DNA of 64,000 nucleotides from a virus: positions 1 through 64,000 of IMG/VR virus record IMGVR_UViG_3300028399_000005. The stretch is one strand, 5' to 3'. Positions 393-49,894 of this stretch are shown one piece after another. A program made the translations under genes and the position numbers. The stretch's first letter is position 1. Every line of letters starts with the position of its first letter. The notes below the pieces were generated by a model. That model did no database searches. It had not been told where the DNA came from and worked only from the letters and a program-made list of their open reading frames with translations.

Positions 393-432
393 CAATATAC
401 TATAGGAAACAATAATATATAAAAGTTGTGGT
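390..432 (-). promoter_or_regulatory. P1 promoter, leaderless
   Basis: On the minus strand it reads ACCACAACTTTTATATATT, then a TATA-like block ending in TATTGATG. The TATA box lies about 25 nt upstream of the ATG. Confidence 0.75.
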
Positions 433-2796: not shown

Positions 2797-3622
2797 GATT
2801 TTTTAAAATTTTTTATCTTTTTTCGCGCATTTTTTCGAGAATCATGAAATCCAGTTTTTGGGTAGAAGAAGCTTCCTTCTCGGAGAATCGACGATTATTT
2901 TTTATTTTTCAGTACCCCCCGCGGTAGCCTATAGAATCAGGAATCCTACTACTAAGCCCTAAGACCCCAGAATTTTCAAAAAAAGAACCAAAAAACCTAC
3001 TATTTTTTAGATTCTTTTTTTTCAATATTTCGCGTTATTTTTCACATTATTTTCAATATCTTACTTTGCTCGGAGGCTTTCCCTTTTTTCATTTTTTACT
3101 ATTTTCCTATTATTTTTTTATTATTTTCAATACTATATACGATAGAATACTAAATCCATAACCTTTAAATATTAGCCCAATATATAATTACTAATATAAT
3201 ATATCATATATTATAATATATGATTCTCAGCTATTCCCGAAATCGGCGCCCCCTATAATAATATAATATCTAGTACAGCAGGCGGAAAACGACGTTGTCT
3301 ATCGAGGGGGGTACTGAAAAAAATAAAAAAATATAGTGATTTTTTAGAATTTAAAAGATTCAGACCGCCAGAAGCAATTCTAAAAAATGGAAAAAAAGTG
3401 AAAAATAACGCGAAAAATATGAAAAAAATACTTCAAGGGGCGACGGCGCAAAAATCGAACGTCGTGGGAGATTCCCTCTCTTCATCAGCGTCTATCGCAC
3501 CCCCCATTGAAAAATAAAAAAATAATCATCAATTTTTCAAAATTTAATACCTAAGGCGAATGTAAGACCATTTTAGAAATTGAAAAGAATATGAAAAATA
3601 ACGCGAAAAATATGAAAAAAAT
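2797..3622. repeat. Inverted repeat copy A, AT-rich non-coding block
   Basis: About 0.8 kb without genes. It aligns along its whole length, imperfectly, with the reverse complement of 50895-51695. Inside are three copies of a G6/C6 tract joined to an A/T run (near 2892, 3305 and 3498), three copies of a TTTTTCGCGTTATTTTTCA-like element (near 3022, 3395 and 3585), and a very AT-rich core (3120-3230) beside CCCCCTATAATAATATAATAT. Iterated elements around an easily melted core would suit a replication origin; recombination sites or packaging signals are alternatives. Confidence 0.85.
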
Positions 3623-3663
3623 GTTTCACGGTGTGTAGCTCGATTTTGCGGGCACGGCTTCCC

Positions 3664-7123: not shown

Positions 7124-7493
7124 GAACGGCAAGGTCTCGAAGTGGTTCGGCGTCCCGTTCTTGTCGCTCGAGGTCGAGAAAATGACCTCGAAGGACGTGA
7201 TCGACCTTTGGGTCGAGAACGGGAAGAAGCTCCCGAAACTCCAATACGTCCGCTCGTTCGTCATCCTTCAAGAAAGTCCCGACAAGTTCTCGTGCTGGCG
7301 GTGCGGGGGAAGGAACGCTCTCTGCAAGGTCTGGCTCACGAACGGCGTCGTCGGAGTCCTCTGCTGGGAGTGCGTGCGGGAACAAGCCTACTTCAACGCC
7401 CCGCTCGCACAAATTCGTAGGATCCGAAAGATAACCAAATCAGCGGGTGGTAAGAGTGCCAAAAAACGCAAACGGCGAAAAGGTCATGTTTAA
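7116..7493 (+). CDS. Zinc-finger protein with basic tail, 125 aa
   Basis: CWRCGG (about 59) and CWECV (about 82) form a zinc ribbon. The C-terminus is strongly basic (KSAKKRKRRK), as expected for nucleic-acid binding. It overlaps its upstream neighbour and contains the start of the ribbon-helix-helix gene near its 3' end. Confidence 0.75.
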   Translation: MSRNGKVSKWFGVPFLSLEVEKMTSKDVIDLWVENGKKLPKLQYVRSFVILQESPDKFSCWRCGGRNALCKVWLTNGVVGVLCWECVREQAYFNAPLAQIRRIRKITKSAGGKSAKKRKRRKGHV

Positions 7494-7611
7494 GGTCTCG
7501 AAGCACATGCTCGAGAAAATCGACGAGCTCATAGAGAAAAACGGCTACAAGAACCGCGCCGACGTGGTTCGCGAAGCCGTCAAGAACCTAATCGAGAAAG
7601 AGCTCGAATAA
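7456..7611 (+). CDS. Ribbon-helix-helix (CopG-like) regulator, 51 aa
   Basis: A short gene with the pattern of a CopG/Arc-type DNA-binding protein: a beta strand FKVSKHML, helix EKIDELIEKN, then GYKNRADVVREAVKNLIEKE, where the turn and second helix follow the family closely. Such proteins bind palindromic operators as dimers. The GTG at 7456 has a GGTGGTAAGA site; an ATG at 7486 would give a 41-residue core. It is the only obvious small DNA-binding regulator in the window and so a candidate reader of the P2 palindrome. Confidence 0.75.
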   Translation: MPKNANGEKVMFKVSKHMLEKIDELIEKNGYKNRADVVREAVKNLIEKELE

Positions 7612-7637
7612 CTTTTCTCCTTCTTTTTTCCTTCAAT
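7612..7637 (+). terminator. Pyrimidine-rich terminator
   Basis: CTTTTCTCCTTCTTTTTTCC directly after the stop at 7611, typical of archaeal T-rich termination. Confidence 0.5.
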
Positions 7638-7647
7638 CGTTCTAACG
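7638..7647 (+). promoter_or_regulatory. P2 palindrome CGTTCTAACG
   Basis: Followed by a GCTTTTTAACC TATA box and the clamp-loader start. Confidence 0.75.
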
Positions 7648-7687
7648 GGAATCAAAGCTTTTTAACCGTCGAGCCAAACGAAAAGTG

Positions 7688-8713
7688 ATGATACAGCAAT
7701 CGCAAGAACAACAGCCCTTGAACGAAAAATACCGCCCAAAGACGCTCGACGAAGTGATCGGCCAAGACGAGGTCGTCGAAGCGATCAAGAACGTGCTTCA
7801 AGCGGGCTACACTTCGCACTTTCTCTTCGTCGGCGCCCCTGGGTGCGGAAAAACAACGATCGCCCAGATCGTGGCGAACATGATCCTCGAAAAACGACAA
7901 TCAGACAGCGTGGTCGACGAGGGAGCGATCTTCATGACGAACGCCTCGGACGATCGGGGGATAGACTACGTGCGGGACGTGATCCGCCACAAGATCGAGC
8001 AAGAACGGTTCTTCGTGATCATCCTCGACGAAGCGGACGCCCTCACCTACCAGGCGCAAGACGCTCTTCGCGGGCTCATGGAACTCGCTGGCAAGCGAGG
8101 GAAGCCCTTTATCCTCACGGGGAACTACGAGAACCGCTTCTCGCCCCCGATCCTCAGTAGGTGCATGGTCTTCAAGTTCCGCAAGCTCTCTTGGAAAGAA
8201 ATCGGTTTCCGCTTGCTCGAAATCGCCGAGAGCGAGGGGATCGAGGTTCCGCAAACCCCCGAGTACGCCCAGTTCTTCAAATTCATCTCCGAGCGGGCGG
8301 ACGGAGACCTTCGGGAAGCAATAGACTACTTGCAAAGCGCCATCTACGTCGACGAGAACGGCGAGAAGCGAATCAACACGAGCATCGCCGTCCAACAACA
8401 AAAACCCAAAGAAATGCTCAAGCAGTTCTTTGCCCTCGTCCGCCGAGGAGAGACCGAGGGGATCGTCAGCGACGTTCGCCACATCGAAGAGCTCCTTCAA
8501 GATGGTAAGCTCCTGCCCGACGACATCGTGAAAACCGCCTACGAGTGGGTGATCGAAAGCAAGCTCTCCGATGAAGAGATTCGCAAACATATCATAGCGA
8601 TCGCCGACACCGAGGCGCGTCTCAAGCTCGGGACGCAACCAATCATCCAGTTCGCCTACCTCATTTCCAGAATCTACCAGAACGCCCTCGAAGCAAACGG
8701 TGGTGCTCGCTGA
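7688..8713 (+). CDS. rfcS: Replication factor C small-subunit-like clamp loader
   Basis: AAA+ ATPase that loads the PCNA sliding clamp on primer-template DNA. About 341 residues. It begins with LNEKYRPKTLDEVIGQDEVV as in RFC small subunits, then Walker A GAPGCGKTT (about 55-63), Walker B ILDEADAL (about 116) and the SRC arginine-finger motif (LSRC, about 158). An RFC-type collar follows. The track-length GTG at 7685 is one codon upstream; ATG 7688 is preferred. It is first gene of a P2 transcript with the nuclease and an unknown gene. A second, larger clamp-loader-like ATPase lies at 53802. No PCNA gene is visible, so the host clamp is probably used. Confidence 0.93.
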   Translation: MIQQSQEQQPLNEKYRPKTLDEVIGQDEVVEAIKNVLQAGYTSHFLFVGAPGCGKTTIAQIVANMILEKRQSDSVVDEGAIFMTNASDDRGIDYVRDVIRHKIEQERFFVIILDEADALTYQAQDALRGLMELAGKRGKPFILTGNYENRFSPPILSRCMVFKFRKLSWKEIGFRLLEIAESEGIEVPQTPEYAQFFKFISERADGDLREAIDYLQSAIYVDENGEKRINTSIAVQQQKPKEMLKQFFALVRRGETEGIVSDVRHIEELLQDGKLLPDDIVKTAYEWVIESKLSDEEIRKHIIAIADTEARLKLGTQPIIQFAYLISRIYQNALEANGGAR

Positions 8714-9618
8714 TGGAAAACATCCCTCAAGACTCGCTCTTGATCTCGTTCTCGCAATTCGCTCTTCTCGAACAGTGCGAGCGAAAATGGTTCTACAAGT
8801 ACATTCGCCTCATTCCCGAGCCGATCGAGGACTCGAAATACCTCGTCCTCGGGAAAGCACTGCACGGCGCTTTCGAACGCACCCTCGCCTTCCTCGCTGG
8901 GCAAGTCGCCACGACGAACGACGCGAAGAAAGCCTTCCTTGCAAGTCTCGAACGAACGCTCGAGGAAATCGAAGACGTGGACTCCGCCACGAGGAGCTTT
9001 GTCGAAGAACGTATTTTCACCGTCGTTCCGACGCTGACGTCGCTCGTGGCGAAGTACTCGCACGTGGCTCAAAGACAAGGGATCGAGAAATACGTCCAGT
9101 ACGAAGTGCCACGCGGGCTCTACGAGAAAAGCGCCCTCGACAGCATGCTCGTCCCATTGTTCGACGACGAGCGCAACGAGGTCATCGACTGGATTCGCCC
9201 AGAACGCGTCATTTTCCGCGGATACGTCGATCTTTTCACGTCAAAGGGCGACGTGATCGACTGGAAAACAGGGCGCCCCTCTCCGCAGAAAATCCAAAAA
9301 TACTCGAAACAAATCCAGACATACGCCTACGTGCTCCGAGAGCTCGGCGAAACCGTGCGGAGCGGGAAAGTCGTGTTCATCGAGAACGGGAGCGAAATCG
9401 ACGTCCCCGTCGACGAGGGCGTCTCTCGTCAAATCGCCGAGAAAGTGTTCCGAAGTCTCATCGACGCCTACGAGCGCCAAGTGCAACCACGCCTCTTCAA
9501 GAAGACAAAGAACGAGTTCGCCTGCAAGTGGTGCGGGTACGCATGGGTCTGTCAAGCCCAAACTTCAAAAACCCTTATCCCGCTTATTAGGAATGAAGCA
9601 CTCGGTGGTCTGTTATGA
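8713..9618 (+). CDS. PD-(D/E)XK nuclease, Cas4/RecB-like
   Basis: Single-strand exonuclease or end-processing nuclease. 301 residues. Motifs in order: SFSQFALLEQCERKWFYKY (14-32, first cysteine), GKALHGAFE (about 50), GYVDL (about 170), DWKTGRPS (about 180, the core D-x-K) and Q..TYAYVL. The C-terminus has CKWCGYAWVC, so with the N-terminal cysteine it can hold a 4Fe-4S cluster as in Cas4 and AddB. The ATG overlaps the clamp-loader TGA. The replication context favours recombination or end processing over CRISPR adaptation, and no cas1/cas2 is present. Confidence 0.9.
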   Translation: MENIPQDSLLISFSQFALLEQCERKWFYKYIRLIPEPIEDSKYLVLGKALHGAFERTLAFLAGQVATTNDAKKAFLASLERTLEEIEDVDSATRSFVEERIFTVVPTLTSLVAKYSHVAQRQGIEKYVQYEVPRGLYEKSALDSMLVPLFDDERNEVIDWIRPERVIFRGYVDLFTSKGDVIDWKTGRPSPQKIQKYSKQIQTYAYVLRELGETVRSGKVVFIENGSEIDVPVDEGVSRQIAEKVFRSLIDAYERQVQPRLFKKTKNEFACKWCGYAWVCQAQTSKTLIPLIRNEALGGLL

Positions 9619-11025: not shown

Positions 11026-11859
11026 ATGCAAGGAGAAGAAGACAATCTACAGCAAGCAAAAGATTCTCGTGCGCAACAATCGGACGAAATCCTCGAGCTC
11101 GCCCTCGACCAGATCCGTGGCGAGGACGGTGAGGACGAAAAAGAAATTGTGCTCTCGGGCGACGAGATCATCGAGAAGCTCTTCGACATCCAACAGACCA
11201 CGACCGACCAGTACATCATGGTCGTGCGGGAGCTCAAGCAAACCGTCGCCCTCATACGGGACTTCATCGAGAAAGCCGACACGAGCAACGAACGCCTGTT
11301 CGAGGTCATAAGCACCATGAAGGACGAGCTCAACACGAACGTCGTCAGAATCCTCGACTCGGTCGTGAACATGCTCTCGGAGCTCACGGTCTTGTCGGGG
11401 AGCATCTCGCAAAAAGTCGACGAGCTCGCTGGCACAAAAGACCTCGGCGCCCCCGACGAGGGCGACCCGCTATGGACGGTCGGGCAAAAAATGATCATCG
11501 ACGCCCTCGCAAAGATCCACTCGATCCTCAGCGGAAGGCCTGGGAGCGAGTTCGTCGAAGCGCTTAACGACTACGCGATCAAGACAGTCGGGAGCGGGCG
11601 GAAAGTCGACGAGCACTTCAACCGCTGGCAACAAGAGCGATTCTTTGCCGAGTTCGTGCTCGACGTTGCGAAGCGCTACAACTACCCCGACCAAGTCGTC
11701 CCGATCTTGCTCGCTTTCGTCGTCGCTTTCATCGCCTTGCGGACGAGGACACCGCTCTTCGCTTCGACGGGGCTTTCCGTGGCGATCGAGAAGTACATCG
11801 CTTCGAACGTTCGAATCGATAAAAAAGAAGAAGGGGAAAAGGCGGGAGAGGATCAGTAG
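11026..11859 (+). CDS. Helical protein with C-terminal membrane segment, 277 aa
   Basis: Acidic N-terminus, a long helical and coiled-coil central region (about 30-140), then a hydrophobic stretch VVPILLAFVVAFIAL (about 225-240) and a basic C-terminus. A GGAG ribosome site lies 8 nt upstream of the ATG; a TATA-like ATTTTTAAGC lies about 45 nt upstream, with no P1 or P2 element, as for virion genes. A structural or lysis role is possible; family not recognised. Confidence 0.75.
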   Translation: MQGEEDNLQQAKDSRAQQSDEILELALDQIRGEDGEDEKEIVLSGDEIIEKLFDIQQTTTDQYIMVVRELKQTVALIRDFIEKADTSNERLFEVISTMKDELNTNVVRILDSVVNMLSELTVLSGSISQKVDELAGTKDLGAPDEGDPLWTVGQKMIIDALAKIHSILSGRPGSEFVEALNDYAIKTVGSGRKVDEHFNRWQQERFFAEFVLDVAKRYNYPDQVVPILLAFVVAFIALRTRTPLFASTGLSVAIEKYIASNVRIDKKEEGEKAGEDQ

Positions 11860-12044
11860 CGATTGTTGCACCACTCGCACGGGGCGTCCCCTATGCAGAG
11901 GCAACAATCAAGGCGCTCTTGGGAGCGCCAATATAACCGCCTGCACGAGTGCCCGCAAGCGTAGCATCTTTTGACCCGTCTGCGGTACCGCAACGGCTCA
12001 GAAAAGATATAGCTATACGATCCAGATAGCAAATCGGTCGTCAT
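11853..12044 (-). CDS. Cysteine-rich zinc protein, 63 aa
   Basis: The ATG at 12044 ends a P1 promoter. The C-terminal half carries CYACGHSC, CCLC and CEWC, enough for two zinc sites, among many arginines. It overlaps the convergent gene by 7 nt. Probably a nucleic-acid or protein-binding zinc finger made early. Confidence 0.8.
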   Translation of the reverse strand: MTTDLLSGSYSYIFSEPLRYRRRVKRCYACGHSCRRLYWRSQERLDCCLCIGDAPCEWCNNRY

Positions 12045-12084
12045 CAAGATATTATAGTATATTAGAATATTTAATTTTTGTGGT
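12042..12084 (-). promoter_or_regulatory. P1 promoter, leaderless
   Basis: Minus strand ACCACAAAAATTAAATATTC followed by the CTATAATATCTTGATG block. Confidence 0.7.
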
Positions 12085-12117: not shown

Positions 12118-12390
12118 TTAGTGAGAGACGACTTCAACATATACCATGTCCCCGACCCCAGCGGGGGTTACGGGGAGCCATTCGATTATTGGCATGTTAA
12201 ATACTTGCAGGGCTTCTGCAAGCTTTTTCTTCGCCTCGTCGATTCTGTCGGGGCTGACCATGACCCCGACTTGGAGCCTCTCCGAATTAGGATCGGCTAA
12301 ATCTGTCCGTATGAGCACCGCATGAGCTGGTGCTCGGATGTATCGCATGAGAAATTTTTCAACACGTTGATAGGCGTATTCGTTTGTCAT
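12118..12390 (-). CDS. Hypothetical protein, 90 aa, next to AcrIII-1
   Basis: Small alpha/beta protein, leaderless from a P1 promoter, lying directly downstream of the ring nuclease gene with its own promoter. No family recognised. The regulatory class and neighbour make it a candidate anti-defence protein; that is guilt by association only. Confidence 0.8.
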   Translation of the reverse strand: MTNEYAYQRVEKFLMRYIRAPAHAVLIRTDLADPNSERLQVGVMVSPDRIDEAKKKLAEALQVFNMPIIEWLPVTPAGVGDMVYVEVVSH

Positions 12391-12430
12391 CAATATAATA
12401 TACGTAAGGGTATTATATAAAGGTTGTGGT
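12388..12430 (-). promoter_or_regulatory. P1 promoter, leaderless
   Basis: ACCACAACCTTTATATAATA then a CGTATATTATATTGATG block on the minus strand. Confidence 0.8.
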
Positions 12431-12515: not shown

Positions 12516-12836
12516 TTACGCGACCCTTTCGAGAAGACCGAGGTCGTACCCGATCTCCTCGAGCTCCTCGACGGAGTTTATGACAACCCCTTCGGGGAGC
12601 CTTCTCTTGAGCTTGAAGACCAGGGCTTTGTCCCCAGTCTCCATGGCTATTTGGAGACGATTCGCTGGGACTTCGATGCCCAGCAACTTCGTGAGGGCTT
12701 CCGCCGTGGCAACATGCCCGACGGCGCTCTCAAACCCGCCCGCAAGGAGCTCACGGGCGTCTTCCACGCTTATGGGGGAGAACTTGTATTCTCCCCAAGC
12801 GGTGATGATCGGGGCGTTCAACACGTAGATCGTCAT
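12516..12836 (-). CDS. AcrIII-1 family ring nuclease (DUF1874)
   Basis: Predicted viral enzyme that degrades cyclic tetra-adenylate (cA4), the messenger made by type III CRISPR complexes, so host accessory nucleases are not switched on. 106 residues, the usual size. It shows the family pattern: YVLNAPI start, SAVGHVATAEALTKLLG (37-53, with the histidine at 41 matching the catalytic position), PANR, ETGDKAL and KRRLPEGVVI. The ATG ends a P1 promoter, so it should be leaderless and expressed with the other P1 genes. Known relatives are spread through archaeal viruses (for example SIRV1 gp29). It implies that the host, or co-resident elements, carry type III immunity. Confidence 0.92.
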   Translation of the reverse strand: MTIYVLNAPIITAWGEYKFSPISVEDARELLAGGFESAVGHVATAEALTKLLGIEVPANRLQIAMETGDKALVFKLKRRLPEGVVINSVEELEEIGYDLGLLERVA

Positions 12837-12876
12837 CAATACATATTATGTGATGATATTATATAAAGGTTGTGGT
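12834..12876 (-). promoter_or_regulatory. P1 promoter of AcrIII-1
   Basis: ACCACAACCTTTATATAATA on the minus strand, TATTGATG at the start codon. Confidence 0.8.
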
Positions 12877-14674: not shown

Positions 14675-15079
14675 CTAAGAAGACGCCATGTCGATGACGC
14701 TCGACAAGACTTCGAGGTTGCATCGAACGGCGCGCTCGAGCCTCCAATGAAGAGGCTCGGAGTTGAGGATGTCGAGAAGCGATGCATAGATGATGCGTAG
14801 GCTCCTCGCGGAGAGGTTGTTGCGCCATTCGTCCATGCCTTCGACGTTGTAAAGAATGAAGTCGAAGGCGCTGTACATCCCCCCGTACATCATTCTCCCG
14901 TATGCGAGCATTTCGATTACTCGCACTGGGAGAAGTGCAAAGACTGCTGGGGGAATGTATAGGTAGATTCTGATTACTCTTTTTCCTCTCTCGTAAGCCA
15001 CGACGAACCCGATGTCGTGGCGATCTCCCGCCTCGCGGGAGAGATGATGATCGGGTAGATGCCTATCACAATATCTCAT
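14675..15079 (-). CDS. Hypothetical protein, 134 aa
   Basis: P1-driven, with a short leader holding TTGAGGAAGT before the ATG. The centre is hydrophobic (IYLYIPPAVFALLPVRVIEML). No family recognised. It is convergent with the membrane protein before it. Confidence 0.75.
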   Translation of the reverse strand: MRYCDRHLPDHHLSREAGDRHDIGFVVAYERGKRVIRIYLYIPPAVFALLPVRVIEMLAYGRMMYGGMYSAFDFILYNVEGMDEWRNNLSARSLRIIYASLLDILNSEPLHWRLERAVRCNLEVLSSVIDMASS

Positions 15080-15125
15080 ACTTCCTCAATATATTATAGG
15101 AAGTGGTAATATATAAAGGTTGTGA
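15077..15125 (-). promoter_or_regulatory. P1 promoter with short leader
   Basis: Minus strand ACAACCTTTATATATTACC, then CCTATAATATATTGAGGAAG; the SD-like GAGG adds a few leader bases. Confidence 0.8.
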
Positions 15126-15271
15126 TTTAGGTAAGAATAGTTGCGACGTCCGATTATCCGCGATCACGGCTTCGACGGGACGCCACGAGCGCCCTTAAAG
15201 TCGAAAAATTCGCCGAAAAACTGCGCAAAGTATATAAATGAACCCCCGCGCAAAAACAAAGTGAGACGCTT

Positions 15272-20513: not shown

Positions 20514-21071
20514 TCAAAAATAGATCACGAACTTGGAGAGTTCGTGGTCGATGAGATAGTAGTGGAACTCACTTCTGTTCTCATCGATCTCGAGCTCGGC
20601 GTAAAGCACGTCCTTGATGACTCTTGCGAGCCATAGTCTGTGCTTGGGAGATCCTCTTCTGATCGAGCCAGCGATCTTGATCCTCAACCCGAGGCTTCTA
20701 ACTCTTGGACTGTTGATATAATCGTTGTCGTCAAGCGACTCGAAGCTCATGTCGGCCATAAGACCGCCATGCTCGAGGTCGCGGGCACCGTCGAAGTAGA
20801 CGTGGTAAGCGTAGTACGGCTCATAGTCGTCGTCGTAGCTATAGTCATCAACGGCGGAGTAGTCGATCTCCTTGATGTTGTTTAGGCTGGCACTGGGGTC
20901 GATTCTCGCCATGAGAGAGCTTGCGAATCTTAGCGCTCTCTCCTTGTTCGCGTCGGAGAAGAGGTAATAACCTACCTCTCCGTCGATATTGACTATATGG
21001 ACGGGGTCGCCCCCGTCCTCAGACATCACGATAAGTGATATGTCAAGTCCCTTGTGGAATAATCCTATCAT
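20514..21071 (-). CDS. Acidic protein with DY-rich segment, 185 aa
   Basis: The ATG at 21071 is at the end of a P1 promoter. The middle has an unusual acidic, tyrosine-rich run (DYSAVDDYSYDDDYEPYYAY, about 93-112). Such stretches can mimic DNA, as in some anti-restriction and anti-CRISPR proteins, but here that is speculation. Family not recognised. Confidence 0.8.
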   Translation of the reverse strand: MIGLFHKGLDISLIVMSEDGGDPVHIVNIDGEVGYYLFSDANKERALRFASSLMARIDPSASLNNIKEIDYSAVDDYSYDDDYEPYYAYHVYFDGARDLEHGGLMADMSFESLDDNDYINSPRVRSLGLRIKIAGSIRRGSPKHRLWLARVIKDVLYAELEIDENRSEFHYYLIDHELSKFVIYF

Positions 21072-21111
21072 CAAGAAAGTATAGGAAGTGATAATATAAA
21101 AAGGTTGTGGT
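21069..21111 (-). promoter_or_regulatory. P1 promoter, leaderless
   Basis: ACCACAACCTTTTTATATTA then a CCTATACTTTCTTGATG block. Confidence 0.8.
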
Positions 21112-26651: not shown

Positions 26652-27608
26652 TTACCAAGTTGCGTCTTCGAACTCTTCGGCGATTACGAAGAGATCGGCG
26701 GTTAGGTCAGTAAAGGCATAGAACATACCGTATTCCTCGATTGCCTCGTCGACACGGGCGACGTATTCTGCGACGAGTTCATCGTCGTCGGATTCCTTGT
26801 TGAAGAACTTGATGAGTTCTTCTTTGATTAGTTTCTTGAATTTCTTGAAAGCGTCGAAGTCGGGGTCGGTGTAGAAAACGTATCTGCGCCCCCATGGGGT
26901 GTTGCTCTCATAAGGGTCTTCGCTTGCGTCGACGGTCTTGATGAGACCAGCCTCTTCTAAGACGTCGACCATGGGGATGCTGTCGTGGATGGAGATGACT
27001 TCGGTGCCTGTCTCGATGTCGTAGTCGGAGTCCGCAAACCCCATGTAGTGCTCACATGGGATGAAGACTCCTTCCCAGACTGTATTGGGAGTTCCGTCGT
27101 CGTGGTACCCAATTATTTCTTGGCGGGTGTCATACAATGGTTCTTTGCACACTGGACAGTAAATGTTCGGCGCAGAGCCATTCTTGAGAAGTCCGTCAAA
27201 AGGCTTATAACCCTCGAGTGAGGGATTCTCTCGGAGTTCGTGGATGATGAACTCCCATATTATTCTAACTCGCAACCTCTTTCCAATGTTCTTCGCCCTG
27301 GCGATGGGATGATTTGTGTATTCTCTTTCCCATCCCAGGGGGTTTTGATGGGTTGCGAGGTAGAAATGTAGGTATTCATTGATGGCGATCTCGTGGCATG
27401 TTGCCACTTTATGAAAAGTGTTGAGGTTCGCCACGAAATCGGAAAGGTCGCGATCGAGCTCGATTGCGGTCTTGATCACGCGCAGAAGGTATTCGTGCGC
27501 GTGCTTGTAGTAGAGAGGCACAAGAGCCTCTCGGGCGTATCTCTTTAGTTTTTTAATTGATGGGGCGATTTGTTTTAATTGTTCGAGCGGTGGCATTTTC
27601 TTTGTCAT
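26652..27608 (-). CDS. Hypothetical zinc-containing protein, 318 aa
   Basis: Largest P1-driven gene of unknown function. The N-terminal 130 residues are helical; the centre has CPVCKE (about 153) and a later CEH (about 188) that may bind zinc; the C-terminus is acidic and helical. ATG 27608 is leaderless. Family not recognised. Confidence 0.8.
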   Translation of the reverse strand: MTKKMPPLEQLKQIAPSIKKLKRYAREALVPLYYKHAHEYLLRVIKTAIELDRDLSDFVANLNTFHKVATCHEIAINEYLHFYLATHQNPLGWEREYTNHPIARAKNIGKRLRVRIIWEFIIHELRENPSLEGYKPFDGLLKNGSAPNIYCPVCKEPLYDTRQEIIGYHDDGTPNTVWEGVFIPCEHYMGFADSDYDIETGTEVISIHDSIPMVDVLEEAGLIKTVDASEDPYESNTPWGRRYVFYTDPDFDAFKKFKKLIKEELIKFFNKESDDDELVAEYVARVDEAIEEYGMFYAFTDLTADLFVIAEEFEDATW

Positions 27609-27648
27609 CAATATAATATAGGAAGTGATAATATATAAAGGTTGTGGT
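27606..27648 (-). promoter_or_regulatory. P1 promoter, near-consensus
   Basis: ACCACAACCTTTATATATTA then CCTATATTATATTGATG; the best representative of the class. Confidence 0.85.
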
Positions 27649-27731: not shown

Positions 27732-27852
27732 GGGGCAGTAGCTCAGCCTGGGAGAGCGCGCGAGTAAAGCCCCCTTGCGCGCGCCACTCTGCGCACAGCA
27801 GATTGAGGGGGCCTCAGTGTAGTCGCGGGTTCAAATCCCGCCTGCTCCACCA
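27732..27852 (+). tRNA. tRNA-like gene, probable 43-nt intron, CCA encoded
   Basis: The acceptor stem (GGGGCAG with CTGCTCC), D arm (GCTC/GAGC around AGCCTGGGA) and T arm (GCGGG-TTCAAAT-CCCGC) are canonical, with an encoded CCA at 27850-27852. The anticodon arm is interrupted. If 27770-27812 is an intron at the usual 37/38 position, the stem is CGCGA paired with TC-GTG around one bulged A, and the loop is GTAAAGC with anticodon AAA. The putative intron has its own helix of about 8 bp (GCCCCCTT with GAGGGGGC). AAA is an unusual anticodon, so identity is left open. Confidence 0.75.
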
Positions 27853-28388: not shown

Positions 28389-28431
28389 ACCACAACCTTT
28401 ATATATTTCTCATTCCTATAGTATATTGATG
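28389..28431 (+). promoter_or_regulatory. P1 promoter, leaderless
   Basis: ACCACAACCTTTATATATTT then CCTATAGTATATTGATG. Confidence 0.85.
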
Positions 28432-28902
28432 ACTGGACAAACAACTCTTGAAGAGTTTGCTCTTCGCCTCATCCCCGTGGGCGAAGAGATCGAAGTTGTT
28501 GTGAAAAAAGACGGGAAAGTAGTCGACTATGTCCCCGTCTTTCGAAAAGATAAAGCGAATTTCGTCCTCGGCACGTTCGAGGGTGTCGTCGAAGTCGAAG
28601 GCAAAACACCGCGCCAGGCGTTAAACGCGGTCAAACGTACACTCAAACAAACCTATGGCATTGTCAAATCGCGACGCAGACTACACACCGTCGACGTATC
28701 CCTCGAGCAGAGAGTCCTCGACTATATCGGGGACTACGACGAGTGGGTGCTCGTCTTCGACATATACGAACGCTACGATGTCGGGGTCTCGGAACTCATC
28801 GACGCTATTAAGAAGCTACACGAACAAGGAAGAATCGACGTGGCGGGCGGAATAACACCCCCGCCGATCCCAGCGAGCATGGCGCTCATCCGAAGAATCT
28901 AA
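28429..28902 (+). CDS. Possible winged-helix protein, 157 aa
   Basis: N-terminal beta-rich domain (EEIEVVVKKDGKVVDYVPVF), then a helical part (VLDYIGDYDEWVLVFDIYER, then VSELIDAIKKLHEQGRIDV) resembling a winged helix-turn-helix. It could be a regulator expressed with the P1 set. Family not recognised. It ends 6 nt before the convergent portal gene. Confidence 0.75.
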   Translation: MTGQTTLEEFALRLIPVGEEIEVVVKKDGKVVDYVPVFRKDKANFVLGTFEGVVEVEGKTPRQALNAVKRTLKQTYGIVKSRRRLHTVDVSLEQRVLDYIGDYDEWVLVFDIYERYDVGVSELIDAIKKLHEQGRIDVAGGITPPPIPASMALIRRI

Positions 28903-33074: not shown

Positions 33075-34394
33075 CTACAAGTAGCCGAGCTGTTTTTCGG
33101 CGGAGAACAAGCCGAACACCCGTTTTCTGTGTTTCTGGCGCAGACCGAGCATCTTCCGAGCGAAGTCTTGGAGCGAGAACCCAGCGTTGGCTTCCTTCTC
33201 CGCGTCGCCGAGAAAATCGAACAAGATCTTGCTAAACGGCGACCCTTCCACGGCGAGAGCGAACGCTTTCCGTTGCTCATCGGCGGGGGCTTGGTTCTTC
33301 CGATTAACGCCTTCCTTGAACGCTTGCACCGCCTTCTCGTACATTACGCCGACAAGCGTCTCAACCTCGGCGTATCGTTGTTTCACGGCGTCGCCGAAGT
33401 TCGTGTGCACGATCTCGTAGAAATCTCTGCTCCCCTCGGCGAGGTCTCGCAGAATCGCCTCGAACATCTCGAACCCGCTCTGCTGGCGCACTCTCGAGAG
33501 CAAGAAGAACTCTTCCTTCTTGATTTTTAAACGGTTTCCGTTCGCGTCCCTCGCAACGAACCCCTCTTCGTCTTTCTCTAAGTCTCCGAGCAACTCGAGG
33601 GCGTAGTTGATGTTGTCGGCTGGTATGCGTCTCGGTCTCAGTGCGCCGATCATGCCAGCGACGCCGTCGAGTGTGTTTGCCTTCGTGATCTCCGCCCTGT
33701 AAGACTCGTTCTGGCCCGCAACGCGCATCGTGAGCAACGCCGTTTGGTGCTTGTCGTAGCGAGTAACGAGGCTGTGGCGACTCCAGTGCGGGAACATGAC
33801 CTCGAAAGCGTAGGTGAATCGCTTGCTCAAGAGATCGTCGAGCTGGTCAAGGCTGACGTCGAGCGCCGTCAAGAAACCGTCGACGAAATCGATGTCGGCG
33901 GGGATCTTGTTCCGCGTGGCGAAAACCCAATCACCACAGTAGTAGAAAACGTTGAGTAATGTACCATCGAACTTCGTCTCGAGCCACGCCCGCTCCCAAT
34001 CGAAGTCGACGTGGCGCCCTTCTTCCTCGTTGTAATTGAAGAACCGAGGGAAGGCGAGGGCTACATAGTTGCCCTTGGCGTCCACGACGAGCCCGCGCAT
34101 GACTTGGAACAGGGGTTCTCGGCGCACGAGCCTCGTCAGCCCAAGATTCGTGTTGAGTTTCATGGTCTGGCGGTAGTTGAGCAAGAACAAGTCCTTCTCG
34201 GGGTGTTGCCGAACGTTGATGCCAAAGATGAAAGCATCGAGATAGTCCTCGGCGTAGTATCTGCGCCCCTCGTGGTAGTACATGTTGCCGTCCCGCTCGT
34301 CGAACACCGAGACCTTGCGCTTGGGGAAGGCTTTCTTCTCGACGAGGCGGGCGAGCATCTCGTACTGCAACATTTCTTCGATCTTGTCTGTCAT
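33075..34394 (-). CDS. T4 Rnl1-like RNA ligase
   Basis: Joins RNA ends through enzyme- and RNA-adenylate steps, typically to repair tRNAs cut at the anticodon by host defence. 439 residues. Motif I is ETKFDGTLLN with Lys141, preceded by FPRFFNYNEEEG, which is typical of the Rnl1 branch. Motif III is YAFEVMFP, motif IV DEEGFVARD and motif V RLKIKKEEF. The promoter is a P1 variant. No matching polynucleotide kinase is seen in the window, so end healing would be by the host or another viral enzyme. Confidence 0.92.
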   Translation of the reverse strand: MTDKIEEMLQYEMLARLVEKKAFPKRKVSVFDERDGNMYYHEGRRYYAEDYLDAFIFGINVRQHPEKDLFLLNYRQTMKLNTNLGLTRLVRREPLFQVMRGLVVDAKGNYVALAFPRFFNYNEEEGRHVDFDWERAWLETKFDGTLLNVFYYCGDWVFATRNKIPADIDFVDGFLTALDVSLDQLDDLLSKRFTYAFEVMFPHWSRHSLVTRYDKHQTALLTMRVAGQNESYRAEITKANTLDGVAGMIGALRPRRIPADNINYALELLGDLEKDEEGFVARDANGNRLKIKKEEFFLLSRVRQQSGFEMFEAILRDLAEGSRDFYEIVHTNFGDAVKQRYAEVETLVGVMYEKAVQAFKEGVNRKNQAPADEQRKAFALAVEGSPFSKILFDFLGDAEKEANAGFSLQDFARKMLGLRQKHRKRVFGLFSAEKQLGYL

Positions 34395-36590: not shown

Positions 36591-36685
36591 ATATATGTAT
36601 ATATATGCGATATATAACTATTTTTGTTTATTAAAACAATGGATGAGCTGGGGGTCTCTTCGCGGTTAAGTGGGGTATGTCTTTA

Positions 36686-36734
36686 TCACAACCTTTATAT
36701 AATACTGTTTCCTATATTATATTGAGGAAACATG
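36686..36734 (+). promoter_or_regulatory. P1 promoter with short leader
   Basis: TCACAACCTTTATATAATAC, then CCTATATTATATTGAGGAAA and the ATG; GAGG acts as ribosome site. Confidence 0.8.
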
Positions 36735-37031
36735 TATAAGCGAGCAAAGATCGATTACGGAAAGATTGACGAATTCAACATGAGCCCCGTCGAAGAAATA
36801 ATCATCGACGAGCTCAAGGACTTCGGCTTCGAGACGGCGTACTACGAAGACGCCGTTTTCACGAAGAACGAACGCGGACAGCTCGTCATCCGCGTTCCGA
36901 AATTTAACGAGCTCTATGACTCCAAGAACTTAATCGCCCTCAAACTAATTCAGAAGTTCTTAGAGGACGCACGCATCTACAGCAGGCTCGTCTCAATCCA
37001 AGACGAATTCCAACTCGTCTTCGAACAGTAA
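36732..37031 (+). CDS. Hypothetical protein, 99 aa
   Basis: P1-driven small alpha/beta protein, acidic, no cysteines. It converges on the primase gene, with a T/C-rich stretch (CTTCTCCTTCTTCTTTTCTC) between them. Family not recognised. Confidence 0.8.
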   Translation: MYKRAKIDYGKIDEFNMSPVEEIIIDELKDFGFETAYYEDAVFTKNERGQLVIRVPKFNELYDSKNLIALKLIQKFLEDARIYSRLVSIQDEFQLVFEQ

Positions 37032-41187: not shown

Positions 41188-41751
41188 CTAAAACTTGAAA
41201 TAATAGAGGTAGAGGTTGTTCGTCATGGGCACGTGCACGTTTCGGAAGAACACGCGCAAGAACCGCTCGGTTACTCGCGTGCTCATCCCGAGGTGCAACG
41301 CGATGTTCCTTCTCGTGGGGACTCCGTCGAACGACCGAACCCTTTCGAGAAGGCTCACAAAGAAGCCAGGGGACATGCTGGCTGTTGCATGCTCCTTGAT
41401 GGCTTCGATGATCATTTTCTTCCGCCCAGAGTAATTGATTGTAAAAACTCTGGGAGAAAGTTGGTAGTAGCGTGGGTTGTTGCGTAGCATCTTCTTGGCG
41501 GTTACGTGGCTGACTCCCTTCTTCTTCGCGTACCAACTTGCGGAGAAAACGAAGATAGAAGGGATAGAGTGGATCGTCTCGTTGCAGACCTCTGCCCAGC
41601 GGATCTTGAGGTACTGAGCTGAGAGGTAGAACGAACGCGGTATTGTTGAGTAGAAGACCCTATACTGCCTGTTTTTTACTTTTATCGTTTTCACGGGCTC
41701 GCGGTGGCGCTTGTACGCCAGAGTCTGTTTTTCGTCTCGTGGTATGATCAT
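41188..41751 (-). CDS. Possible helix-turn-helix protein, 187 aa
   Basis: First gene of a P1 operon. Basic throughout; residues about 85-95 (VSHVTAKKMLRN) and 145-165 (PTRRNIALHLGMSTRVTERF) look like helix-turn-helix segments. That suggests a DNA-binding regulator made with the P1 set, though no family is recognised. Confidence 0.75.
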   Translation of the reverse strand: MIIPRDEKQTLAYKRHREPVKTIKVKNRQYRVFYSTIPRSFYLSAQYLKIRWAEVCNETIHSIPSIFVFSASWYAKKKGVSHVTAKKMLRNNPRYYQLSPRVFTINYSGRKKMIIEAIKEHATASMSPGFFVSLLERVRSFDGVPTRRNIALHLGMSTRVTERFLRVFFRNVHVPMTNNLYLYYFKF

Positions 41752-41862: not shown

Positions 41863-43842
41863 ATGAACGAACAAGACGAATCATTCGACCCAGAGAAAGT
41901 AGTAGCGAAAATTCTCGATCTTGCGCCGAAAACAGTCCTCATCATGGGAAAGATCGGCGAGGACGAAAGAAAGGCGCTTGAGCGCCACATCAAGGAAGAA
42001 TTCAAGAAGAGCGCCGAAAAGGAGAACGCCCACGCAGAACTACTCGGTTTCGCGGACTACTACGGACGGCACCAAAAATACGAAAAAACGAAGAAAGCAT
42101 TCGGCGACCGAATCGTCGAAGCCCTTGACAGAATCGCAACAAACCAAATAGTCGACATTCTCGAAGTGTACCGCCCATTGTTGCTCTCGAAATATTACAA
42201 CTTTACGCACTTGAACAAAAAAATAGACGGGAGGATCGCAGACATTCTCGTCCCCACGAATTTCGAGCGAGTCTTTCTATCTACACTGTTCGTCGGCGAA
42301 ATAACGCACTTGGCAACAGGCGCCGAGCTCGTGGGGAGTATTTCCCGTCCAGACCTCGAATTCAAGGCGAAAGAAAGCGATTTCGACGTTCGGGCGTTTT
42401 CCACGCACGAACTCACGTTCGCAACGGCGGTCGGTTTCACGCTCGAAAAAGTGTTCAAGCGTTTGCTCGCACGCGTTACGCAAACGGCGTATGAGAACGA
42501 CGTGCCAAACGTCGTGGCGACCGTTGATCGGTTCGTAGCGTCGATTAAAGGACGAGAACTCTTGCTCGAGCTCGTCGAAGACCCTGGCTTCGACTTGCAA
42601 GTGCGGGAATGGGAGAGCCTCGGAATGCTCGATGAGTCAGTCATCGATCCTCGAGAAGCCGTCCGCGAGCACGCCCTTCAAGAACCGACGGCGTCTTTCC
42701 GAACGTTGTTCTTGCCCTTCGACTCAAGGTTTTTCTCCCGCGAGAACAAACAACGCATGCTCGACCTCTTCGAGCATGATAAAGACGGTGCTGTCCTCGT
42801 CGGCGATAGCTACGTGGCCTTGCGCGTGCTTGCGGATGACGCTACCATTAACAAGAGCTTCGTCCAGACCATTTTCATCGATCCGCCGTTCAACAAGCCG
42901 AACGAGGCGAACTACAAGTATAGCGTCAAGATCGGCGACGACGTCTGGATTGCCATGCTCCGCTCAAGGCTTCGGCTCGCAAGGGAGCTCTTGCACGAGA
43001 CGGGCTCGATCTTCGTTCGATGCGACTATGAGGGCTCTCACTACGTCCACCTTCTTCTCGACGAGATTTTCGGCAAGAAGAATTTCCGCAACGAAATCGT
43101 CGTCAAGCGCTCGAACCGCATCAAGAGCCCGACGTCTCGCTTCTTGTCGTGGCACGACGTTGTGTTCTTCTATGCGAAAAGAGCGGACAGAGCTTTTTTC
43201 AAAGAGCTTGTCGTCGATGAAGAGGCACGCAATGGCTGGCGGGGAATGGACATGCCAGGCGATTCTTACGAGGTCGTCCCCTCGGGGCTCGAGTCATTAT
43301 TCGAGCCGTGGATGCTTGAGAAAGACTCTTATGAACAGACAGTTACTCGTGCGAGGCTGTTCTTCGGAAAACCTATCATGCCCCCGCCAGGGCGCAGATT
43401 CCCTTCCCAAGCAAAAATCAACGAAGAGATCGAGAAGGGCAATATTCGCTTTTCTCGCTCGGGGCGCCCGTTGATCCGCAAGCGTGGCTACAAGGTGCTT
43501 ACCGACGATTGGACGGACATTTTCGGCTACAAGAACCGCTTCGGGTTCACGACGGAGAACAGCGAGGAACTGCTACGACGCGTGATCATGGCAACTTCGA
43601 AGGAAGAGGACGTTGTGCTCGACTTTTTCGCTGGTAGCGGGACGACCCTTGCCGTGGCGCACAAGCTCGGGCGAAAATGGGTCGGCGTAGAAATCAACGA
43701 CCACGCTTTCGAGGTGCTCATCCCCCGCATGAAGAAAGTGCTGTTCTACGACGAAGGAGAGATCAGCTCGTTGAAAGAAGTCAGAGAAAAATACAACAAA
43801 CGCCGAGCTGGCGGGGTCTTCTACTATTACTCTTATGAATAG
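41863..43842 (+). CDS. Type III Mod-like DNA methyltransferase, 659 aa
   Basis: Motif IV is FIDPPFN (about 343) and motif I VLDFFAGSGTTLAVA (about 585), in the beta-class order, as in type III modification (Mod) subunits. Between and before them are large regions that would carry sequence recognition; SIFVRCDYEGSHYVHLLLDEIFG is typical of this group. No Res subunit is nearby. The N-terminal 200 residues are helical and lysine-rich. P2-driven. Its 3' end overlaps the convergent cysH gene by 10 nt. Confidence 0.92.
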   Translation: MNEQDESFDPEKVVAKILDLAPKTVLIMGKIGEDERKALERHIKEEFKKSAEKENAHAELLGFADYYGRHQKYEKTKKAFGDRIVEALDRIATNQIVDILEVYRPLLLSKYYNFTHLNKKIDGRIADILVPTNFERVFLSTLFVGEITHLATGAELVGSISRPDLEFKAKESDFDVRAFSTHELTFATAVGFTLEKVFKRLLARVTQTAYENDVPNVVATVDRFVASIKGRELLLELVEDPGFDLQVREWESLGMLDESVIDPREAVREHALQEPTASFRTLFLPFDSRFFSRENKQRMLDLFEHDKDGAVLVGDSYVALRVLADDATINKSFVQTIFIDPPFNKPNEANYKYSVKIGDDVWIAMLRSRLRLARELLHETGSIFVRCDYEGSHYVHLLLDEIFGKKNFRNEIVVKRSNRIKSPTSRFLSWHDVVFFYAKRADRAFFKELVVDEEARNGWRGMDMPGDSYEVVPSGLESLFEPWMLEKDSYEQTVTRARLFFGKPIMPPPGRRFPSQAKINEEIEKGNIRFSRSGRPLIRKRGYKVLTDDWTDIFGYKNRFGFTTENSEELLRRVIMATSKEEDVVLDFFAGSGTTLAVAHKLGRKWVGVEINDHAFEVLIPRMKKVLFYDEGEISSLKEVREKYNKRRAGGVFYYYSYE

Positions 43843-44600
43843 CGCTTTTTGGGTTTGCCGACCACTCGGTCTCGCCATAAAAACAGCCCGCTCGTTTCCT
43901 TGCTCCCGAAGTGGTTGAACTCGCTGTCGAAAAACGTCGAGAGACGGGCGTTCTCCCATCCACCGTTGATTCTGGCGAGCTTTTCATAGACGGACGGCAC
44001 GGGGACATCGTGCTCGACAATGTAGGCCCAGACGTCTTTCGCCGTCCACTCGGCGATCGGGAACGCCGTGTCCGTGAACCCGCTCTTTTTCGGTTCTATC
44101 CACGTTCCCGTGCGTCGCTTCGCCTCGGCGATCCGCGCTCGGCGCTTCTGGGACTCTTGGGATCGTAGACCGAGGAAACAGACGTCCCAGCCGTGGCGTT
44201 TCACGGCTTCCGACAAACGGGGGAAAAACGGCGATTTAGCGATGTGTGATTCTCTTGCGGACGGTTTATCGCCCCCAGGCCTTTTCTCGTAACTATGGCG
44301 AGAAAAAGGGGCAATCTGGTCAATTCCTTGCAAGATCTCTTTCTCGATCCAACGGGGGATCAACCATTCGCCGTAGTCCCAGTGGCGAACCCAGACGTCC
44401 CTCTTGTACTGGACGACGAGATGGAGCATCGCCATGGAGTCCTTCCCGCCAGAGACGGCGACATAGGGGTTTTGATAGCTCGCCAAGACTCGGCGAATGA
44501 ACGAGCGGGACGTGGCTACCTTGCGCCGATACTCCGACGTGTTCGTGTGTAGGAGAAAGCCAGCGATGACGGGTTTCGGCATGAATTTGGACGGTTTCAT
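43833..44600 (-). CDS. cysH: CysH-like PAPS reductase-fold protein of type IV-B locus
   Basis: PP-loop ATP-pyrophosphatase fold. SGGKDS (50-55) is the PP-loop; GLRSQESQKRR (144-154) and PIAEWTAKDVWAYI (181-194) are further CysH-family motifs. The C-terminal catalytic ECGLH of true PAPS reductases is absent, so sulfate reduction is unlikely. A cysH-like gene is the known companion of type IV-B CRISPR loci; its role there is unsettled. The ATG overlaps the csf3 stop (ATGA), so it is part of the same operon. 255 residues. Confidence 0.92.
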   Translation of the reverse strand: MKPSKFMPKPVIAGFLLHTNTSEYRRKVATSRSFIRRVLASYQNPYVAVSGGKDSMAMLHLVVQYKRDVWVRHWDYGEWLIPRWIEKEILQGIDQIAPFSRHSYEKRPGGDKPSARESHIAKSPFFPRLSEAVKRHGWDVCFLGLRSQESQKRRARIAEAKRRTGTWIEPKKSGFTDTAFPIAEWTAKDVWAYIVEHDVPVPSVYEKLARINGGWENARLSTFFDSEFNHFGSKETSGLFLWRDRVVGKPKKRYS

Positions 44601-45391
44601 TGCGCAAGACCTATTTTTTGCTTTACTTGGGCGGAGAGCTCGCACTTTGCGCCGACGGGGACGCACGCGTCGATGTTTCGTCTGTCCCAGTACGGCGGTT
44701 TCCAGGCGAGGTAGGCGAAGTCGTCGTATTCGTCGCAGTAGCGCGTCGGGATGGGTCGTAGCGCTTCTTTTGTTTTCGGGTTCCAGAAGCTCGCCTTGTC
44801 GGGGTTTGGCTTGATCTCGACATGGCTGACTTCGCCGAAGCCGTAGGCGGTCTTTTTCCCGAGCCCCGTAACGTGTGCTATGAGCGATAGCAAGGAGTAG
44901 GGCTTCGCCTCGACGAAGACGTCGGCGTATCGGGCGGAAATGTAGGGGATTCTGATCGAGTAGTTCTTGAACGTCCCAGAGCCGAGGCTGATCTTGCTCT
45001 TCTTCCCGCCGATCTTGTGGGCGTCTGGCTCGTGGAAGCGTTTGTAAACATACTCGATGTTCGCCCGCTCCTCGACGTTGATGAGCTTCCCGTCGGCGTC
45101 CTTGAATAGGATGACAGAGGAGTGATAGAAGTACGTTTGGCGGATTGGCATGGGCAACGCTCGGACGCGCTTTCCGAGGGGGTCGTTCGAGGGGAGCATG
45201 TAGTAGTCTTGCCCGAGGGTGAGGCGGAGCAACATGTGCGCCACGAGCCCGTCGAAGTTGATCCACGGGTGCGTGATCATGACGGGCGCTTTCAAGTGGA
45301 ACCGCACGAGGACGTGCGCCCACTCTTCGCCTTTGAGCGTGGCGTAGTACTCCGTCGGCGTGTCCGCGAGCAAGTATTGCCGTAGGAACAT
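44597..45391 (-). CDS. csf3: Csf3 (Cas5-like) type IV CRISPR subunit
   Basis: RAMP-fold protein expected to cap the 5' end of the guide RNA in a type IV complex. 264 residues. The N-terminal region VRFHLKAPVMITHPWINFDGLVAHMLL (two pieces around residue 40) matches the Csf3 pattern of a strand then a hydrophobic helix. The late glycine-rich loop GLGKKTAYGFGEV is the RAMP signature. ATG 45391 is used, with GGGATGACG upstream; longer frames overlap csf2. Confidence 0.85.
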   Translation of the reverse strand: MFLRQYLLADTPTEYYATLKGEEWAHVLVRFHLKAPVMITHPWINFDGLVAHMLLRLTLGQDYYMLPSNDPLGKRVRALPMPIRQTYFYHSSVILFKDADGKLINVEERANIEYVYKRFHEPDAHKIGGKKSKISLGSGTFKNYSIRIPYISARYADVFVEAKPYSLLSLIAHVTGLGKKTAYGFGEVSHVEIKPNPDKASFWNPKTKEALRPIPTRYCDEYDDFAYLAWKPPYWDRRNIDACVPVGAKCELSAQVKQKIGLAQ

Positions 45392-45395
45392 AGCG

Positions 45396-46286
45396 TCATC
45401 CCTTCTTCTTGAACGATGAGAAATCGATTTTCTGGGCATCAATCGCCTGCAAGAGCGCCAAGATGTCGTCTTGATTTTCTTCGACGAATCTTAGATACGT
45501 TTCTTCTTTTCCGAGTGCGCTCAAGGCAGTCTTGTCGTAGTCTGGACGCAACGCGCCGAGCCCGATGCTTGACTTCCCGCCGACGTAGCAATTGTTCTCC
45601 CAGATTCGGAACGCTCTTCGGAAGAACGCTTCTTCGACGGGCGTGGGGTCTTCGAGGACGAAAGCGTGCGTCAGCCTCGTGCCAGGGATCAAGACCTCGT
45701 ATTCGACGAGCATTTGTTGTGCTTGTTCGCCTTCGTCCCGCTCGGCTCTGAGCTCGTCTTTGCGGGTCTGGTAAGTGTCGCTCATGAGCTCGTGGAAACT
45801 GAATTCGGCGCCCCTAACCGTTGAAGGGTCGAACGTGATCCCTTCGAGCTCCTTGCAGATCGGGAAAGCGTTCATGACCTTGAGCTTTCCCGTGAACGCT
45901 TGGTTGAGGAAGGACGAGCCGAAAACACTAATGGGGGGCAAGAGGTATCGGATGGTCTTCCTCGCTTCGAGGTTGAGCGTCCCGCTGTCCTTCGAGGACA
46001 CTTTCTCGAGGTTCCCGCCCGAGTAGAAAAAGTGGTAGAGTCTGGCGGTCTCGAATCGGTGTCTTTGGCCCTCTCTGTAGCCCACGAGGTCGAGGAAGTC
46101 CTTCATGACGAGGCGTCGCAGGCGCCCTCTGATTGCATTTCCGCTGATGTAGGGCACTTCTTGGATCCCCTTGTTCGTGATCATTTCGATTCTTCGGAAC
46201 CCGATCGTGGATCCCGTTTTTTCGTTCCCGCCGTGGTGGACGGGGGAAAGAGCTGTCAATATTCCGCTGATTTTAATTGTCTTCAT
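45396..46286 (-). CDS. csf2: Csf2 (Cas7-like) type IV backbone subunit
   Basis: Forms the helical backbone that coats guide RNA. 296 residues. Begins with SGILTALSPVHHGGNEKTG (7-25) and PYISGNAIRGRLRRLV (45-60), a pattern characteristic of Csf2, and has a C-terminal GGKSSIGLGAL glycine-rich loop. AAAGGAGTTGAG lies upstream of ATG 46286. Lies between the small-subunit genes and csf3, the usual order in type IV loci. Confidence 0.92.
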   Translation of the reverse strand: MKTIKISGILTALSPVHHGGNEKTGSTIGFRRIEMITNKGIQEVPYISGNAIRGRLRRLVMKDFLDLVGYREGQRHRFETARLYHFFYSGGNLEKVSSKDSGTLNLEARKTIRYLLPPISVFGSSFLNQAFTGKLKVMNAFPICKELEGITFDPSTVRGAEFSFHELMSDTYQTRKDELRAERDEGEQAQQMLVEYEVLIPGTRLTHAFVLEDPTPVEEAFFRRAFRIWENNCYVGGKSSIGLGALRPDYDKTALSALGKEETYLRFVEENQDDILALLQAIDAQKIDFSSFKKKG

Positions 46287-47870: not shown

Positions 47871-47880
47871 CGTTATAACG
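47871..47880 (-). promoter_or_regulatory. P2 palindrome of csf operon
   Basis: Perfect CGTTATAACG followed on the minus strand by GGCTATTATACAG and the csf1 start. Confidence 0.75.
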
Positions 47881-48292: not shown

Positions 48293-48347
48293 TACATCCC
48301 TGTCGTCGGGCGGGTCTCCTTCCCCCTTGCGGGGGTAACCCACCAAT
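48293..48347 (-). ncRNA. Structured 5' leader, copy 1
   Basis: From the P1 start site: outer helix GGTGGG with CCCGCC, inner helix CCCCC-GCAA-GGGGG, an AAGGAGA internal loop strand, then CGACGAC and the start codon. Outer-helix bases differ but still pair in the two other copies. Confidence 0.75.
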
Positions 48348-48383
48348 ATAATATAGGAAGGAGAAATATAAAAAGGTTGTGGT
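48345..48383 (-). promoter_or_regulatory. P1 promoter feeding structured leader
   Basis: ACCACAACCTTTTTATATTT then CCTATATTATATTGG. Confidence 0.8.
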
Positions 48384-49829: not shown

Positions 49830-49894
49830 AATTTGGTTAGAAGATGCGTAAAAAATATGAAAAAAATGTGCAAAAATATGAAGCATAAATCATG

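Follow-up and report, generated by a model that had tools for sequence, protein, structure and literature searches.

A virus-encoded ring nuclease of the AcrIII-1/Crn2 family behind a promoter sequence shared with other viral genes, in a genome that also carries a type IV-B operon

The minus-strand gene at positions 12516 to 12836 encodes a well-formed new member of the AcrIII-1/Crn2 family that keeps every active-site position considered. It was studied in the first 64,000 bases (the window) of a virus record of 83,942 bases. Cyclic tetra-adenylate (cA4) is the second messenger made by the type III CRISPR (Cas10) complex of a host and activates effectors such as Csx1. We hold it probable that the gene product is a canonical AcrIII-1 cutting cA4, that the gene belongs to an early-type promoter set of about 16 genes, and that the type IV-B operon located elsewhere in this genome is a separate module.

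12516 to 12836 (stop codon included), minus strand: AcrIII-1/DUF1874 ring nuclease coding sequence, 106 aa, ATG at 12836, reading frame intact

Residues 3-98 of the protein match the Pfam family PF08960 (STIV_B116-like, that is DUF1874) over profile positions 1-100 of 101, scoring 98.3 bits (E = 3.1e-28) against a curated cut-off of 26 bits. A PDB sequence search matched it to AFV3-109 (E = 5.7e-25) and SIRV1 protein 114 (E = 2.8e-5), with the STIV B116 and Marinitoga Csx1-Crn2 chains also among the matches. H41, R60, R79, and E82 align with His47, R66, R85, and E88 of SIRV1 gp29, the H47A variant of which is catalytically inactive (PMC7213978). Across 49 aligned DUF1874 sequences S37, G40, H41, A45, R60, R79, and G83 (ring nuclease numbering) show no variation and N7, T44, and E82 almost none, the invariance of G40 and H41 being partly built in because the pattern used to collect the sequences itself demanded "GH". 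An AlphaFold (AF2) model of the monomer has a mean pLDDT of 92.5. On structure comparison it matched 2j6b (AFV3-109, Z 16.4), 8y7g (Csx1-Crn2 with cA4 bound, Z 14.9), 6scf (an AcrIII-1 crystal structure, Z 14.3), and the AcrIII-1 structures 2x4i and 2j85; matches to AcrIII-1 and Crn2 span Z 14-16, and unrelated folds reach at most 2.6. The preliminary description had proposed a DUF1874 protein with a histidine at the catalytic position, which the Pfam match, the placement of H41 on His47, and the AcrIII-1-like predicted fold all bear out. The best PADLOC model was "Csx16" (PDLC01147, E 5.5e-35). We dropped that name, as PDLC01147 also matches textbook AcrIII-1 homologues (AFV7, Fnu1) and the Tepidicella protein; the label is therefore no evidence for a true Csx16, a family absent from the Pfam and NCBIfam results for this protein.

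The ring nuclease is encoded by a virus. The same record codes for a terminase large subunit (TerL), a portal/Mu-F protein, a prohead protease, and one protein with weak head-protein matches. Its replication genes encode a family B DNA polymerase, an RFC-like clamp-loader subunit, an XPF-like nuclease, and a primase-like protein. Together these two groups of genes indicate a tailed virus of an archaeon. The top PDB chains for the RFC-like (1iqp) and XPF-like (2bgw) proteins point to different lineages. Among viral contigs we found no relatives of the major capsid protein (MCP), TerL, or ThyX of this virus, and the MCP had no match in phage records. The 12 bases CCGCAGATGGGA are common to both ends of the record (positions 1-12 and 83931-83942) as a direct terminal overlap, and when the ends are joined, a minus-strand reading frame that runs off the record start (its promoter is at 432) can be followed over the junction to its close. 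The 84-kb record may accordingly be a complete circle. Several other features of the genome were observed. Two AT-rich blocks at 2797-3640 and 50881-51695, about 48 kb apart, are copies of one another in inverted orientation (arms up to 146 nt, 84%) and are possible replication origins. A tRNA gene at 27732-27849 apparently bears an intron (an Rfam match of 118 nt, missed by ARAGORN), a T4-type RNA ligase-like gene lies at 33075-34394, and positions 82146-82364 of the record hold tandem 7-nt repeats with the units GTAGAAG and CTACTTT.

The ring nuclease gene is one of about 16 viral genes that stand behind a predicted common strong archaeal promoter, made up of BRE/TATA and a downstream TTCCTATATTATATTG block. 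The layout is ACCACAACC/TATA/TTCCTATATTATATTG, and versions of it recur on both strands. A matrix scan of the record gave 16 sites of at least 30 bits besides weaker ones, and five simulated 64-kb sequences gave none even at 12 bits or more; the matrix was made from 11 copies chosen in the same genome, so this null tests chance and not the choice of sites. The ring nuclease gene heads a cluster whose next two genes also have promoter copies, and further copies are spread over the window.

12837 to 12876, minus strand: shared promoter element of the ring nuclease gene, ACCACAACCTTTATATAATATCATCACATAATATGTATTG, 40 nt, ending at the ATG, 39.1 bits leave-one-out
12118 to 12390, minus strand: second cluster gene, 90 aa, own promoter copy at 12391-12430 (62.5 bits)
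11853 to 12044, minus strand: third cluster gene, 63 aa, Cys-rich, weaker promoter copy at 12045-12084 (31.3 bits), ATG at offset 40
393 to 432, minus strand: shared promoter copy, gene starting at 392 (62.7 bits)
15080 to 15126, minus strand: shared promoter copy, gene 14675-15079 (64.7 bits)
21072 to 21111, minus strand: shared promoter copy, gene 20514-21071 (58.8 bits)
27609 to 27648, minus strand: shared promoter copy, gene 26652-27608 (68.5 bits)
28389 to 28428, plus strand: shared promoter copy, gene 28429-28902 with a possible C-terminal winged helix (63.8 bits)
36685 to 36731, plus strand: shared promoter copy, gene 36732-37031 (63.0 bits)
48342 to 48383, minus strand: shared promoter copy (64.0 bits)
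62179 to 62226, plus strand: shared promoter copy, gene 62227-62826 (59.6 bits)
from 49052, minus strand: related promoter copy (59.5 bits)
from 49829, minus strand: related promoter copy (37.8 bits)
from 50315, plus strand: related promoter copy (39.5 bits)
from 61838, minus strand: related promoter copy (31.7 bits)

For most of these genes, the ring nuclease gene included, the distance from the first A of ACCAC to the ATG is 40 nt. Transcription from a TATA box of this kind would be expected to start at roughly that point, which makes leaderless mRNAs probable; the ring nuclease mRNA is probably one of them. The genes downstream of the element are mostly small and mostly lack an assigned function, and no copy was found in the stretches inspected upstream of the protease, MCP, TerL, and portal genes. 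The product of 12118-12390 had no Pfam or PHROG match and no homologue in phage records, and its AF2 single-sequence model (pLDDT 79.7) gave only weak matches to ribosomal-protein-S6-like folds. By eye the products of 28429-28902 and 41188-41751, both behind the shared promoter, are helix-turn-helix-like and are candidates for Aca-type autoregulators. A SMODS hint in the 28429-28902 product (E 0.012; cyclase E 0.014) was judged to be chance. At 48296-48385, 48965-49054, and 49742-49831 three genes have a conserved leader containing a CCCC..GGGG hairpin after the shared promoter, in place of an immediate ATG.

A survey of archaeal viruses found early anti-defence genes to be marked by shared strong promoters (PMC11065993). 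The arrangement sought there, a strong BRE/TATA promoter inside a regulatory sequence common to other genes of the same virus, is present at the ring nuclease gene. Such a predicted common strong promoter points to expression of the ring nuclease soon after infection. Timing differs among known relatives. STIV B116 is expressed early (PMC7213978). The shared early motif has a prevalence of 0.13 among AcrIII-1 homologues, and acrIII-1 of SIRV1/2 sits in a middle-stage operon (PMC11065993). According to that survey, which cites its ref. 47, SIRV2 AcrIII-1 expressed at the middle stage from its native promoter gave no anti-CRISPR effect during infection; lack of an early promoter is the explanation published for this (PMC11065993). 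Because of this failure, family membership does not guarantee an anti-CRISPR role. The role of AcrIII-1 in natural infections is disputed, and the window virus offers a natural counter-case to SIRV2. With an AcrIII-1 behind a strong promoter common to about 15 other genes, it makes the missing-early-promoter explanation testable. Through the shared promoter, the genome of this tailed archaeal virus also supplies a short list of uncharacterised genes that are candidates for anti-defence.

To see how the arrangement compares with other DUF1874 loci, the 36-mers upstream of the gene in 43 viral loci were matched to the rest of each locus and to simulated sequence, a coarse measure on loci that are fragments. 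In most of the 43, matches of the upstream 36-mers to the rest of the locus were no closer than those to simulated sequence. The clearest excesses were those of the window virus (28 identical bases versus at most 22 simulated). They also included L019/L028 (31 versus 24 and 22), L038 (28 versus 24), and L015 (26 versus 22).

The protein is most likely a fast cA4-degrading anti-CRISPR. It would be made early from the shared promoter, probably mostly as a leaderless mRNA, and would form a dimer enclosing cA4. The dimer would cut cA4 to linear di-adenylates, so that effectors activated by cA4, such as Csx1, would stay off, to the presumable benefit of the virus in a host with type III immunity. 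For published AcrIII-1 the rate of cA4 cleavage is 5.4 per min, some 60-fold that of the host Crn1 (PMC7213978).

The preliminary description had also placed the ring nuclease beside a virus-borne type IV system. The same genome does carry a type IV operon, and its gene content, csf1-cas11-csf2-csf3-cysH, fits the definition of subtype IV-B (PMC8175902), from which we took the subtype.

47871 to 47880, no strand: palindrome CGTTATAACG in the region upstream of csf1; the window has 15 CGTTNNAACG sites, this one included
47051 to 47821, minus strand: csf1 (type IV Cas8-like), possible start ATG at 47821, PADLOC typeIV_Cas8 E 9.5e-21
46645 to 47073, minus strand: cas11 (type IV), PADLOC typeIV_Cas11 E 9.2e-24
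46313 to 46648, minus strand: small reading frame of 111 aa between cas11 and csf2, no PADLOC match
45396 to 46286, minus strand: csf2 (type IV Cas7), PADLOC typeIV_Cas7 E 4e-65
44597 to 45442, minus strand: csf3 (type IV Cas5) reading frame, PADLOC typeIV_Cas5 E 1.7e-43
43833 to 44600, minus strand: cysH-like gene, 255 aa, SGGKDS motif, PF01507 E 7.5e-16 on the containing reading frame
8713 to 9618, plus strand: Cas4/PD-(D/E)XK-like nuclease, PF12705 E 2.1e-22, PADLOC Cas4 E 1.4e-13

Among the proteins scanned, no dinG or cas6 match exceeded the csf3 match, and among the repeats listed, the vicinity of the operon included, there were no array-like spaced exact 20-nt repeats. The nearest record found for the operon is a Thermococcus nautili plasmid with an identical gene order (Csf2 43%, Csf3 35%, and Csf1 28% identical); the plasmid and the window virus have only the type IV genes in common.

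The position given in the preliminary description does not hold. Some 31 kb separate the operon (43.8-47.8 kb) from the gene of the ring nuclease, and the two differ in their promoters: the ACCACAACC/TATA/TTCCTATATTATATTG element at one versus CGTTATAACG palindromes at the other. "Beside" is therefore overstated, and the type IV-B operon is a separate module under a different promoter. Upstream of csf1 there are palindromes of the CGTTATAAC type, and the TATA-like stretch there is a different one. CGTTNNAACG occurs in 15 copies in the window where about 1-3 are expected, and the palindromes are likely the operator of a second gene class. They were found at 3664, 7638, 19661, 22788, 35331, 38766, 39288, 40276, 41814, 47871, 52465, 53750, 56288, 57799, and 61854, and many of them directly precede a gene, among others the RFC-like gene, the AAA gene, and csf1.

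A type IV-B complex contains no Cas10, and neither production of cA4 nor a need for it is expected of such a complex. For that reason the ring nuclease and the type IV-B module are compatible and not thereby linked. That the type IV effector may exploit immunity, as the preliminary description suggested, is speculative. The genome joins an AcrIII-1 with a type IV-B operon. Heterogeneous small RNAs are bound by IV-B complexes, for which a role as crRNA sponges has been put forward (PMC8175902). If they do act as sponges, the virus would hypothetically act on CRISPR immunity at two levels. An attack on type III immunity in which cA4 is removed early, crRNAs are later sequestered or redirected by IV-B, and about a dozen other promoter-sharing genes without an assigned function serve anti-defence is conceivable, though we think it unlikely. 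The Cas4-like nuclease is possibly a second anti-CRISPR factor or a replication nuclease.

A coordinated counter-CRISPR programme, added to the main explanation, would likewise have cA4 removed early and host crRNAs sequestered later by Csf complexes. The presence of the ring nuclease, the type IV-B genes, and the Cas4-like nuclease in one genome speaks for it, as does the small-RNA binding of IV-B complexes. The distance between the modules and their different promoter types speak against it, and so does co-occurrence. A Csf2 match was found in none of 64 other viral records with DUF1874 (48 and 16 searched, many of them fragments), and of the viral records with relatives of Csf2, 19 besides the present one (many again fragments), a single one has a DUF1874 homologue. 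That one, L108/L120, is a 28-kb contig resembling a bacterial temperate phage. It has a type IV-B set of csf1, cas11, csf2, cysH, and csf3 at L108:6969-11477, and in its DUF1874 homologue (L120:1495-1830) the catalytic His is replaced by Tyr and the R..E-G motif is missing. We set it aside as a second case of type IV with a ring nuclease, its DUF1874 protein being without the catalytic His. Among the records covered, the window virus is thus the only one that joins an intact ring nuclease to type IV-B, and we consider a coordinated programme quite unlikely. Two separate modules, with the ring nuclease as a canonical AcrIII-1, remain our preferred reading.

Virus-borne DUF1874 is already known to be widespread. 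An alignment-based profile scan found 65 DUF1874 loci in viral contigs, and a scan of the same kind of contigs with the single ring nuclease protein gave no match. The closest viral proteins, from contigs L011 and L012, are 57-61% identical to the window protein. A tree of 73 rows and 112 columns groups the window protein with these two and with five bacterial genome sequences (support 94/79, which is not strong). Going by coordinates and contig number, the DUF1874 gene is some 6 kb away from a match to the Cas10 palm domain in two of the bacteria, Tepidicella and Tepidimonas, as expected of Crn2. Bacterial sequences are among the nearest tree rows, and two of these sequences lie close to cas10, so a Crn2-like regulatory past of the ring nuclease is possible. 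The same neighbours, with the failure of SIRV2 AcrIII-1 under its native promoter noted above, speak for a Crn2-like housekeeping role, in which cA4 is cleaved mainly to shield the cell, and hence the virus, from runaway type III toxicity in a long infection, and not to rescue viral replication as an anti-CRISPR would. This seems rather improbable to us, since the window gene has a shared promoter typical of early anti-defence genes and the fork on which the grouping depends is somewhat weak in a tree of so few columns.

The 144-kb viral contig L012 has tandem DUF1874 genes. The copy at 7998-8312 is intact; that at 7466-7780, in which GH is changed to SN and the Arg and R..EG positions are lost, is possibly a decoy or a re-purposed copy. 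Homologues without catalytic residues such as this one and L120 exist, and RefSeq labels relatives "DNA binding protein", but another function for the window protein (DNA binding, for example) in place of ring nuclease activity is highly improbable, as no active-site position considered has changed.

The AcrIII-1 proteins of Sulfolobales viruses (AFV3-109, SIRV1 gp29, STIV B116) are like the window protein in DUF1874 fold, length, and His/Arg/Arg/Glu active site, and AFV3-109 is 48% identical to it over the fold. The viruses differ: those of the Sulfolobales are filamentous, rod-shaped, or turreted, whereas the window virus is tailed, and its ring nuclease is closer in sequence to L011/L012 and the bacterial genome sequences than to the Sulfolobales proteins. 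Crn2, the host DUF1874 protein of type III loci (e.g. Marinitoga Csx1-Crn2), shares the family and the active site; unlike Crn2, the window ring nuclease is encoded by a virus and has no Cas10 beside its gene. The PADLOC "Csx16" model fits the window protein best, yet fits AcrIII-1 homologues as well. For the type IV-B operon the nearest parallel is Fuxivirus of Bathyarchaeia, an archaeal tailed virus described in PMC10848311 as carrying type IV-B and a Cas4-like protein, so that type IV-B in such a virus is not new. By that account both viruses are tailed and archaeal and encode csf1-csf2-csf3-cysH with a Cas4-like nuclease; Fuxivirus is 32 kb with a mini-array, and the window virus 84 kb with no array found. 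The window virus has an AcrIII-1, and none is mentioned for Fuxivirus in the sections consulted of that paper. The promoter of the window ring nuclease is common to many genes, which is not so for most AcrIII-1 relatives (PMC11065993). The early regulatory motif of archaeal viruses resembles it as a BRE and TATA element common to many small genes of one virus (PMC11065993); the window promoter differs from that motif in its flanking sequence, its probable leaderless starts, its occurrence in a tailed virus, and the presence of an AcrIII-1 in its set.
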